This document shows, piece by piece, positions 43,021 to 46,495 of a DNA stretch of 64,000 nucleotides. The position numbers were made by a program, and so were the translations under genes. Each line of letters starts with the position of its first letter. Within the stretch, counting starts at the first letter, position 1. A model generated the notes under the pieces. That model ran no database searches. It worked only from the letters and a program-made list of their open reading frames with translations, and was not told the origin of the DNA. This DNA comes from Laspinema sp. D2d (GTDB taxonomy: Bacteria; Cyanobacteriota; Cyanobacteriia; Cyanobacteriales; Laspinemataceae), in the NCBI RefSeq assembly GCF_025370755.1, contig NZ_JAMXFC010000038.1, positions 1 through 64,000 on the forward strand, written 5' to 3'.

Positions 43021-43206
43021 ATGGACGCGCTGATAGAGACCCTCAATGCCAAATTAACCCAATGGGAACCCGATGTGGCGGAAGCAGTACGTCAAAGCAT
43101 TTCTGAGATTATAGAAATGGCCGATCGCGACCTTCTGGATATCATGCGATCGCGCCTTGTCGAACAGGAGGTATTAGATTTAATCGATGAACCCGAAACC
43201 CGGTGA
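43021..43206 (+). CDS. Putative antitoxin of a MazF-type pair
   Basis: A 61-residue acidic helical protein, MDALIETLNAKLTQWEPDVA, with no motif I can name. It overlaps the start of the mazF-like gene by 20 nt, typical of an antitoxin-toxin arrangement. GGTAGGG precedes the ATG. The reading frame looks intact although the toxin is broken. Confidence 0.65.
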   Translation: MDALIETLNAKLTQWEPDVAEAVRQSISEIIEMADRDLLDIMRSRLVEQEVLDLIDEPETR

Positions 43207-43501
43207 AGTCTGGCTGGTCGATTTGGGATTAGCTGCCAAAATGCGACCTGTTCTCATCGTCTCTCGTGCCGATCCCAATCCGCCCAGAGCATTGGTGGTC
43301 TATGTTCCCCTAACCAGTCAAAATCGCGAGAGTCCTTACGAGGTGGTACTCCCAAAACTACCCTTTCTGAATCGCGATTCTGTAGCGAATGTTCAAGGGT
43401 TAGGGTCTGTACCACCGTGAGGCTAGAGCAAAGATTGGGTAGACTTCCAGAAGGAGGTCATGCTTCAAGTTAAGGTAGCTATTTTATTTGCATTGATTCT
43501 A
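43187..43501 (+). pseudogene. mazF: MazF/PemK-type toxin with two frameshifts
   Basis: The first frame reads MNPKPGEVWLVDLGLAAKMR to SVANVQGLGSVPP and stops at 43418-43420. The family continuation VRLEQRLGRLPE is in the next frame (one base missing near 43416), and EVMLQVKVAILFAL in a third (one extra G near 43452-43455). The core with the RPVLIVSR and PLTSQN strands is present, but the C-terminal helix is lost from the translated product. Confidence 0.82.
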
Positions 43502-43756
43502 AAAAAAGTGATCGCTCCCTATTCTCTATGCAGACAGAAGCGATCCCCCTAAGCTTATATTTACCTAAGTAAGCACTGGTGCAAAAATAATTGCACCCTT
43601 CGGGATAGTCTAGGCAAGGCTTTCAGCGAATCCGGATGTGCAATTTATTTTGCATGACTGCTTAGTTATCAAAAACTAATTGCACATTTTCAATTGCTGA
43701 TGTCCTGGTCTATGAAGTCTCAAATCGTACAACTTGTTTCAAATACTAGGTATTAA
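43502..43756. other. Intergenic region between mazF remnant and WHxH gene
   Basis: About 255 nt with no open frame or hairpin I can support. Two TGCAAAAT/ATTTTGCA-like patches occur near 43580 and 43640. Confidence 0.35.
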
Positions 43757-44344
43757 TCAATTACTATCGCAGTTTCCTCCTCCTGCACAATTACCTGTAC
43801 AGGTAGAACAATTATCCGAACAATCTACTGTACAGTTAGGCCCACACTTGGGAATTCCCAGGAGAGAATATGACTCTTGAAAATGTCGGGTAAATAAATC
43901 TAAAAAATTTTGCTTTGCTGTTCTTTTTTGTTCATATGTCACCGAGTTGCTATGGGGGTTATGGTGTATGAAATGACCTGATATGTGTTGACAAAAATTT
44001 TGATATGATCGTGTATGAATAATGTGGCAATGCCAAAATTCATCAACCTCATCGGAAGGAACACCTAACAACGAATTCTTCTGAGTATTGATACTACAAA
44101 GATACATATATTTGCGATAAAGCAATTCAATATCGTCTACTCGTTCAGATAATTCAGGATGGTCATTTAGAAACCGTTCTCTAATCACAGTTAAATCGTA
44201 CTTCATTACTCTGTCTAATATCAAATTTCCTGCTTTCTTTGATACTTCCATTTGCTCTGTATTCAAACCAACAACTTTTGAGATCATGATTGTGGGATAA
44301 TGAAAATTAGGTTTAACTTTTCTTAATGCTAGATTATTGAACAT
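43757..44344 (-). CDS. WHxH-motif (GRDP-like) protein with cysteine-rich tail
   Basis: A 195-residue protein. The central part (about 75-130) has YRKYMYLC, then VPSDEVDEFWHCHIIHTRSY, NFC, and IHHNPHS, the histidine-rich core seen in glycine-rich-domain-protein-like (DUF1399) families. The last 30 residues hold seven cysteines at 167, 171, 175, 179, 182, 186 and 192, in a Gly/Asn/Thr/Ser context. The tail could bind metal or be modified. The gene is divergent from a STAND ATPase and shares its promoter region. Function unknown. Confidence 0.7.
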   Translation of the reverse strand: MFNNLALRKVKPNFHYPTIMISKVVGLNTEQMEVSKKAGNLILDRVMKYDLTVIRERFLNDHPELSERVDDIELLYRKYMYLCSINTQKNSLLGVPSDEVDEFWHCHIIHTRSYQNFCQHISGHFIHHNPHSNSVTYEQKRTAKQNFLDLFTRHFQESYSLLGIPKCGPNCTVDCSDNCSTCTGNCAGGGNCDSN

Positions 44345-44366
44345 AACACCAGCAACCGAAAAAAAA

Positions 44367-44432
44367 CTGATTTTCCAGGCTAATCTGTAACAATATATTA
44401 AGACGAGCGGCTAAAAAACCTGATTTTCCAGG
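44367..44432. repeat. Direct repeat CTGATTTTCCAGG in a divergent promoter region
   Basis: The 13-nt sequence occurs at 44367-44379 and 44420-44432, both preceded by an A-run, with centres 53 nt apart. It lies between the WHxH gene and the STAND ATPase gene. Each copy has imperfect dyad CCTG/CAGG ends. A regulator binding site is possible. Confidence 0.55.
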
Positions 44433-44479
44433 AAAAACTTGTGCTACAATTGGCGAAACCCTTACCCACCTTAAGCTCT

Positions 44480-45829
44480 ATGACGATTGCAGAAGTTTTA
44501 CAGTTTGTAGATCAGTTAGTGGAGAAGCAAACAGGAAAACACTTGAATGACTTAGAAAAAACGGTGGTTCAAGGGTTGTGGAAGGGGCAAACTTACAGCC
44601 AAATCGCTAGTGAATTTGGCTATGATGAAAACTATATAGGGGATGTGAGTCGTCAAATATTTAAACAGCTATCGGATGAGTTAAATGAAGATGTTAAAAA
44701 GTCTAATTTTTGTTGGACAATTGAGAGGGTTATAAATTCTCAGTTTGTAGGCTTAGTCAACAGTCCTATTAATTGGTGTACGCCTCATAATCAAACCAAT
44801 ACCAATCCATCGATCGCCCATGAAGAAGAACCCAACAACCAAACCGGGTATTCAGATTTAACCCTGGCCCCCAAAATTACCCAGTTCTACGATCGCACCC
44901 TGGAACTGCAAACCCTATCTGATTGGATCCTGGTTAAAAATACTCGCCTTATCTCCGTTGTTGGATTGCCGGGAATCGGGAAAACCACTCTAGTGAAGCG
45001 GTTTGTAGACCTTAATCTGCAACAGTTTGATGCAGTGATTTGGAAAAGTATCAAGATTGAACCCAGTTTAAATACCCTAATTACCGAGTTTTTAACAAAG
45101 GTTGCTCATGCTGACTTAAGGTTTAGCGAAATAAACCTTCTGGAGTTATTCAAAGCTTTGAAAACCTGTAAAACCTTGCTCATCCTTGATGACATCCAAG
45201 AGTTATTTAAACCCGGAAAGTTAGCCGGACAGTATCAAAGCCGCTTTCAAGAGTACAAAACCCTATTTCAGCGGCTAGGTGAAATTGAACATAACAGTCA
45301 TTTAATTTTAATCACTCAGGAGCAATGTCAAGAAATGGTTGGGTTAACTGGGGAATTAGATCCGGTGCAGATTTTAAAATTACCAGGATTAACCCAGACC
45401 AGTATTTTGAGCGATCGCAGTCTAAAAGATCCGTCAAGTTGGTCCCAGTTGATCCAGCGGTATGAAGGGCACCCGGTTTATCTCCAAGAAGTCGCCGATT
45501 TAATTAAAACCATGTTTTCTGGTAAAGTTTCAGACTTTTTAGCGGAAGAAGGCATAATTTTAACCGCCAACATGAAATCCCAACTCGGGGATATCTTTAA
45601 CCGATTGTCTCCTCTGGAAAAACAGATTATGGTCAAGTTAAGTCAGTCTCCGAACCCAATGTCAAAAAATCAGTTAAAGGAAGAGTTAGACCTATCTTCA
45701 ATGGATTTAATCAATGGGTTAGAATCTTTAAGCCGACGCAACTTATTGAAAACAGTTGAAGCCGAGAGTGTTTTGTTTGAGGGGTGGGGTTTGATGCAAG
45801 AATATATTAGAAGTCTAAGCAGAAATTAA
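44480..45829 (+). CDS. vMAP-type N-terminal HTH plus NB-ARC STAND ATPase
   Basis: About 449 residues. The N-terminal part (about 1-85) is the vMAP-like helix-turn-helix, with VLQFVDQLVEKQTGKHL and TYSQIASEFGYDENYIGDVS. A linker is followed by an NB-ARC ATPase: P-loop VVGLPGIGKTTL (about 159-170), Walker B LLILDDIQ, and a C-terminal winged-helix-like part. No WD40 or TPR sensor follows, unlike many cyanobacterial relatives. An in-frame GTG at 44441 is an alternative start, but the ATG fits the family. Confidence 0.8.
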   Translation: MTIAEVLQFVDQLVEKQTGKHLNDLEKTVVQGLWKGQTYSQIASEFGYDENYIGDVSRQIFKQLSDELNEDVKKSNFCWTIERVINSQFVGLVNSPINWCTPHNQTNTNPSIAHEEEPNNQTGYSDLTLAPKITQFYDRTLELQTLSDWILVKNTRLISVVGLPGIGKTTLVKRFVDLNLQQFDAVIWKSIKIEPSLNTLITEFLTKVAHADLRFSEINLLELFKALKTCKTLLILDDIQELFKPGKLAGQYQSRFQEYKTLFQRLGEIEHNSHLILITQEQCQEMVGLTGELDPVQILKLPGLTQTSILSDRSLKDPSSWSQLIQRYEGHPVYLQEVADLIKTMFSGKVSDFLAEEGIILTANMKSQLGDIFNRLSPLEKQIMVKLSQSPNPMSKNQLKEELDLSSMDLINGLESLSRRNLLKTVEAESVLFEGWGLMQEYIRSLSRN

Positions 45830-45929: not shown

Positions 45930-46193
45930 ATGAATATCTCCCTGACCCCCACACAACAGGAATTTATTCGCGCTACCGTCAACCGTGGCAGATACGCTTC
46001 GGAGGGTGAAGTGGTGGCAGCGGCATTGCAGTTGCTGGAGGACCGAGAAAAGCGCTATCAGGAAAAGTTAGCGGAATTACAGGAAAAAATTACTGTAGGC
46101 ATTGAATCCCTGGATCGCGGTGAAGGGATTGATGGGGAAACCGCCCTTCGAGAGCTGCGGGAAAAGATTATCAGTCGGTCTCAAGAGCAATGA
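45930..46193 (+). CDS. parD: ParD-like antitoxin
   Basis: An 87-residue protein with an N-terminal ribbon-helix-helix, MNISLTPTQQEFIRATVNRG, RYASEGEVVAAALQLLE, typical of ParD/CC2985 antitoxins. The C-terminus is charged and likely unfolded until it binds the toxin. It overlaps parE by 4 nt (ATGA). Confidence 0.9.
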   Translation: MNISLTPTQQEFIRATVNRGRYASEGEVVAAALQLLEDREKRYQEKLAELQEKITVGIESLDRGEGIDGETALRELREKIISRSQEQ

Positions 46194-46495
46194 GTGTTTA
46201 TATTCTATCCGAGGCAGCGTTCCAAGATATCACAGACATTGCCACTTACCTGGAACAGCTTAGTCCGGCTGCGGCTGTTCGTTTGATTGATAAGATCATT
46301 GAACAATGTCAAAGGCTGGCCGATTTTCCGAATATGGGACGCCGATGGGACCAAATCAGTCCGCCTCTGCGGAGTTTTCCGGTGGAAGATTATCTGATTT
46401 TCTATCGGGGGATTGCTGACGGAATTGAGGTAGTGCGGGTGGTGAGTGGATATCGAGATTTGAGGACTATTTTTGAGTGGCTGGATGAGGATTAG
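46190..46495 (+). CDS. parE: ParE-like toxin
   Basis: A 101-residue RelE/ParE-fold protein with LSEAAFQDITDIATYLEQ, MGRRWDQISPPLRSFPVEDY, LIFYRGIADGIEVVRVVSGY and RDLRTIF. Both the helical N-terminus and the beta-sheet core are complete. ParE toxins target DNA gyrase. gyrB is in this window but not linked functionally by sequence. Confidence 0.88.
   Translation: MSVYILSEAAFQDITDIATYLEQLSPAAAVRLIDKIIEQCQRLADFPNMGRRWDQISPPLRSFPVEDYLIFYRGIADGIEVVRVVSGYRDLRTIFEWLDED

Follow-up and report, generated by a model that had tools for sequence, protein, structure and literature searches.

The window analysed here, the first 64,000 nucleotides of contig NZ_JAMXFC010000038.1 of the cyanobacterium Laspinema sp. 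D2d, contains a divergent gene pair that encodes a protein with a WHxH motif and a cysteine-rich end on one side and a STAND ATPase on the other. As had been proposed in an earlier reading of the DNA without database searches (the sequence-only reading), the two start codons are separated by 135 nt, a distance that the ORF coordinates confirm. The features of the locus are listed by position.

43483..44352, strand not applicable: variable interval without a match in sister genomes, G+C 35.6% against 46.3% for the window
43757..44344, minus strand: WHxH (divergent GRDP-like) gene, 195 amino acids, the current divergent neighbour or putative cargo
43769..43846, minus strand: seven-cysteine tail, residues 167-192, predicted to be disordered (pLDDT <50 from residue 171)
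43955..44044, minus strand: WHxH ... HHxP motif region, residues 101-130 (alignment A4)
44360..44379, plus strand: upstream repeat copy, AAAAAAACTGATTTTCCAGG; the repeat pair precedes the ATPase gene in six genomes
44395..44400, minus strand: possible -10 element TAATAT toward the WHxH gene, placed by eye in a conserved middle block
44413..44432, plus strand: downstream repeat copy, offset by 53 bp and covering the ATPase promoter's -35 position
44445..44450, plus strand: TACAAT, a likely -10 element for the ATPase promoter (paralogues have TATAAT at the aligned site)
44480..45829, plus strand: HTH-NB-ARC STAND ATPase gene, 449 amino acids from the ATG at 44480
44912..45205, plus strand: NB-ARC segment with the P-loop GLPGIGKTT (PF00931, 39.1 bits against a cut-off of 23.5)

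An in-frame GTG upstream of this ATG, at 44441, would extend the ATPase to 462 residues. The protein had been described as a vMAP-type HTH joined to NB-ARC with no WD40 or TPR sensor; the NB-ARC match is well above its cut-off and the Pfam scan contains no such sensor, but no VMAP HTH match was returned by either the Pfam or the NCBIfam scan. A consensus of the HTH, compiled by hand from homologues, matches Sigma70_r4 with 25.8 bits (cut-off 24.1), although real family members score weakly against that model, and the Pfam scan gave no match to the SARP DNA-binding (ODB) and BTA domains. PADLOC produced weak matches across the NTPase part, to PDC-S01 and others, and no match for the WHxH protein. 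In STAND NTPases of the NB-ARC clade, C-terminal sensor repeats (WD40, TPR, LRR) are common but not universal, and in this particular family the sensor-less form is the usual one: relatives contain from 0 to 46 matches per genome, mostly open frames of about 450-530 amino acids. Many filamentous cyanobacterial genomes carry from a handful to more than 40 matches to this sensor-less STAND ATPase, for which we found no paper in the open-access literature that reports a function.

The 13-nt direct repeat that had been noticed in the shared promoter region is real: CTGATTTTCCAGG occurs exactly twice in the window, at 44367-44379 and 44420-44432, with a spacing of 53 bp or about five helical turns. 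It can be extended to 27 nt at 85% identity, and within the 170 nt upstream a repeat this good appeared in none of 40 dinucleotide shuffles. With two mismatches allowed, the window holds 10 matches to CTGATTTTCCAGG against 2.8 expected, and the 18-nt form of the repeat, with at most one mismatch, has no site in the same genome beyond these two. Six genomes from two genera (G000, G001, G003, G004, G011 and G012) have the same 53-bp pair ahead of the ATPase gene, among them, as regards the proposed search upstream of orthologues, the three congeners G001, G003 and G004, whose ATPases are 84-91% identical.

None of these three congeners has the WHxH gene. The DNA similarity of G003 and G001 to the window starts at 44353 and 44352, respectively, just outside the WHxH start codon, and continues through the ATPase gene, so that the shared block includes the repeats but not the WHxH gene. 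The repeat pair therefore belongs to the ATPase gene and travels with it, not with the WHxH gene; a shared element requiring both genes is ruled out, as the repeats persist where the WHxH gene is absent. The divergent neighbour of the ATPase gene in G003 encodes an MMR_HSR1/dynamin-type GTPase, and in G004 a 152-aa protein, beyond which lie further genes, one of them for an AAA ATPase as judged by its sequence; the G001 contig stops about 30 nt short of the shared block, and the G001 genome contains no match to the WHxH protein. Across the genus no WHxH orthologue was found, the best relatives being 30-38% identical. The pair is thus not conserved and the spot is variable, contrary to the expectation that the two genes would co-occur; by the sequence-only reading's own test, this refutes the pairing as stated.

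These observations bear on a simple alternative, that the WHxH gene was acquired in a variable spot and is a chance neighbour, functionally unconnected with the ATPase and its promoter, which we consider rather unlikely. It is favoured by the different genes that occupy the spot in G003 and G004, by the low G+C content of the WHxH gene (34.7% against 46.3% for the window, a value equally low in 1.4% of equal windows) and by the viral-contig origin of its nearest row in the tree discussed below, whereas the WHxH start codon lies 23 nt from the first 13-nt repeat. The spacer at 43421-43770, searched in its own genome, has no second copy and gave a self-match only. Beyond it, a PemK/MazF-like toxin ORF of 77 amino acids at 43187-43420 has a syntenic counterpart of 153 amino acids in G003 and, being about half that length, is probably broken; a ParDE pair is located at 45930-46495.

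The WHxH protein contains the sequence DEFWHCH...HH.P, and in alignment A4 residues D101, W104, H105, H107, Y114, H128 and P130 are invariant. The seven cysteines previously counted within 26 residues are indeed present, at positions 167, 171, 175, 179, 182, 186 and 192. The score of the protein against the GRDP-like family PF07173 is 15.7 bits, under the cut-off of 22.7 that the relative L010 clears with 23.7 bits. An AlphaFold2 model was obtained with pLDDT >90 over most of the core and a disordered tail; its best structural match in BFVD is annotated as GRDP-like (E 6.7e-4, probability 1.00), while the PDB yielded no fold match to the model and sequence matches to solved structures were confined to the low-complexity tail. 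By its predicted fold, the window protein is a divergent GRDP-like protein, which has the fold and the WHxH...HHxP core in common with PF07173 but falls under the family cut-off and ends in a cysteine-rich tail.

The cyanobacterial WHxH relatives form two groups, short proteins without a cysteine tail and long membrane proteins with GGCGGCGG-type tails. The window protein belongs to neither group in the tree, where it is nearest to a protein with a Cys-rich tail from a viral contig, with a support (94/79) that is not strong. Cysteine-rich ends are common in the wider WHxH family, at least four cysteines being found in the last 40 residues of 20 of 56 members versus 17 of 709 other ORFs, but the tail is not a conserved trait, as it is missing from the short cyanobacterial proteins. 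When genome contigs were searched for the nearest relatives, one distant match was recovered. WHxH proteins with Gly/Ser/Cys-rich tails are encoded on viral contigs L104, L157, L163, L164 and L165 (about 245-595 kb) as well as L148 and L166, and several of the WHxH-encoding viral contigs are of huge-phage size.

The conserved histidines together with the cysteine tail suggest metal binding, and the most likely role of the protein, albeit weakly indicated, would be that of a small cytosolic metal-binding protein. A resemblance exists to TIGR04222 membrane proteins with Cys-rich ends (PMC12452194), which have a similar C-terminal Cys-rich low-complexity tail; unlike them, the window protein gave no match to TIGR04222, its 195 residues include no membrane-spanning hydrophobic stretch evident by eye, and no MNIO enzyme (PF05114) was found in its genome. 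A RiPP or MNIO-modified tail was considered and set aside, as no MNIO gene was found in the genome.

The sequence-only reading had suggested that the Cys-tail protein could be the sensed or effector partner of the ATPase, and the adjacency of the two genes, their divergence and their common upstream region count in favour of a dedicated pair. A linkage of this general kind does occur elsewhere: at 19 of 32 loci, short cyanobacterial WHxH genes adjoin an NB-ARC-TPR gene, in every case convergently, with a gap of <400 bp in L063, L065, L066, L067, L069, L071, L073, L107, L109, L112, L114, L116, L118 and L119 and of <3 kb in L068, L074, L102, L106 and L113, versus 0 of 20 loci for the long membrane group. 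Among 59 relatives, NB-ARC-TPR is present in 10 of 10 genomes with a short WHxH gene, and 3 genomes have NB-ARC-TPR alone, so that the short WHxH protein and NB-ARC-TPR possibly constitute a real, undescribed pair. However, the window protein lies outside the NB-ARC-linked short clade, members of that clade have no Cys tail, and the linked NB-ARC-TPR was not found in the window's own genome at E 1e-60. Because three congeneric ATPase orthologues occur without the WHxH gene and the short WHxH proteins are without the tail, a dedicated sensor/effector pair is not supported, and we regard it as very improbable; what stands of the suggestion, in altered form, is the divergent arrangement, which turns out to be a rule for the ATPase family, and the recurrent linkage of another WHxH clade to another NB-ARC protein. 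Short WHxH genes are also located beside a series of genes for EAD4-TRADD-N-DUF1822, CHAT and, in most cases, GNAT (L063, L064, L065, L069, L070, L071, L072, L073), and CHAT and DUF1822 genes are found near 5 of the 20 long membrane WHxH loci (L127, L133, L141, L144, L145).

The nearest upstream ORF is divergent for 25 of 28 family members and, in a second sample, for 36 of 40, as opposed to 178 of 454 control genes (39%) processed with the same ORF-based and admittedly crude neighbour caller. The Fisher p of 2e-10 for the second sample is optimistic, since the samples consist of related paralogues, but frequencies so far above the control indicate that the arrangement is not random, which counts against the chance-neighbour explanation. 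The divergent neighbours are unrelated to one another: a scan of 20 identified three radical SAM proteins, two AIG1 GTPases, and one each of a WD40 protein, an Ntox44 toxin, a DNA methylase with Mrr endonuclease, an ARC6-like IMS protein and DUF6232 (the last slightly under its cut-off), with no match for the remaining 10. As divergence is the rule in the family and yet the neighbour is new each time, the WHxH gene could yet be cargo of the shared promoter.

Direct repeats are also a feature of other promoters of this family. Such a repeat, counted where no more than one of 40 shuffles did as well, was detected in 22 of 40 other paralogue upstream regions and in 11 of 120 control upstreams. 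A set of 77 non-redundant HTH-NB-ARC promoters, drawn as stretches from mutually related paralogues rather than at random, has a self-match excess of +0.117 (se 0.010) for lag 10 and +0.071 for lag 20, with dips in between and control values near zero; taken singly, 49 of the 77 reach p < 0.05. The window promoter does not belong to these 49 and has no 10-bp phase (p 0.69), its long unit being repeated once at 53 bp. Many HTH-NB-ARC promoters contain paralogue-specific direct repeats, often helix-phased, beside a -10 box. In six promoters (L183, L184, L201, L202, L205, L207), a slightly varied middle element, TTTTGTTACAAAATATTAAGC, lies between the repeat blocks; it is common to many window-type promoters, and its opposite strand has a TAATAT-like box directed at the divergent gene.

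Repeats of this kind, A-rich units one helical turn apart beside a TATAAT box, could in principle be phased A-tracts (DNA curvature or UP elements) or the sites of a shared global regulator instead of targets of the ATPase. We consider this quite unlikely, for several reasons. The G/C positions alone still match at lag 10 (0.305 versus 0.172 in shuffled sequences), which shows that the repeat phase is not only a matter of A-tracts, and the repeat units, G/C parts included, differ between paralogues of one genome. The two iterons from G012 covered by a genome-wide search are confined to promoters of the HTH-NB-ARC family: AAAGTACGAAAAGTA is found nowhere but at its own promoter and at one site, differing by one mismatch, before another HTH-NB-ARC gene, and the tandem GGAAATGTCGG iteron at its own promoter only. 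Finally, promoter repeat content correlates with the recognition-helix window (partial r about 0.23 once the remainder of the N-terminus is accounted for, permutation p 0.0005), above the other N-terminal windows (0.006-0.19), although with another window reaching 0.19 this peak is suggestive. A K-versus-R recognition rule (GTA against GTC) was not significant and was rejected.

On the basis of these data, we propose that the ATPase may be an HTH-NB-ARC regulator that, by way of the two 20-nt repeats, acts on the divergent promoter of its own gene, with the WHxH-Cys gene as its current cargo, a reading that we hold at about an even chance. The N-terminal HTH would bind side by side to the two repeats, at a position that overlaps the -35 region, and would there assist or obstruct RNA polymerase; by analogy with AfsR, the activity of the regulator would depend on the nucleotide state of NB-ARC, and the cargo gene would be switched together with the regulator. 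AfsR, a SARP-NOD-TPR activator of Streptomyces, is likewise a STAND/NOD protein with a DNA-binding domain; its NOD and TPR domains inhibit activation, ATP binding relieves the inhibition, and its target at afsS consists of 11-bp direct repeats one helical turn apart that overlap the -35 element (PMC10936776). The window has repeats and a -10-like box at what by sequence would be the corresponding positions, with a spacing of 53 bp instead of 11. AfsR, however, uses a SARP domain and repeats at another gene, whereas the window ATPase has a sigma-r4-like HTH, no TPR and repeats at its own promoter, which moreover differ per paralogue within the family. Since the DNA-binding domains differ, the comparison concerns the way of working and not membership of the AfsR family.

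A further comparison is with the cyanobacterial sigma70-region-4/NB-ARC/TPR_MalT proteins (PMC11119718), which also combine sigma-factor domains with NB-ARC; that paper catalogues domain architectures, and the portion of its text covered here does not mention promoter repeats or divergent cargo. The VMAP, EAD and TRADD-N conflict systems described from multicellular bacteria (PMC7159879, PMC8195603) are similar in their STAND ATPases, variable effectors and cyanobacterial expansion, but no MoxR, vWA or VMAP gene was seen adjoining the window pair. A term search found no GRDP in either of these two papers and no WHxH in PMC8195603, and in the open-access literature we found no paper that connects cyanobacterial HTH-NB-ARC proteins with repeats in promoters or with divergent cargo.

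More tentatively, and at somewhat less than an even chance, the family as a whole may consist of cyanobacterial modules of one regulator, one operator and one swappable cargo, each with private iterons, in which operator and recognition helix co-evolve and in which the cargoes include GTPases, radical SAM enzymes, a polymorphic toxin, a restriction-modification protein and the WHxH-Cys protein. If so, the private operator and the swappable divergent gene would explain the expansion of the ATPase family, each family protein would have a predictable DNA target, and the family would provide a natural data set with many members for a protein-DNA recognition code.

In L287, L290 and L297, the gene divergent from the HTH-NB-ARC gene is a radical SAM gene; in L287 and L297 the two genes are separated by 650-790 nt, which leaves room for a small peptide gene.
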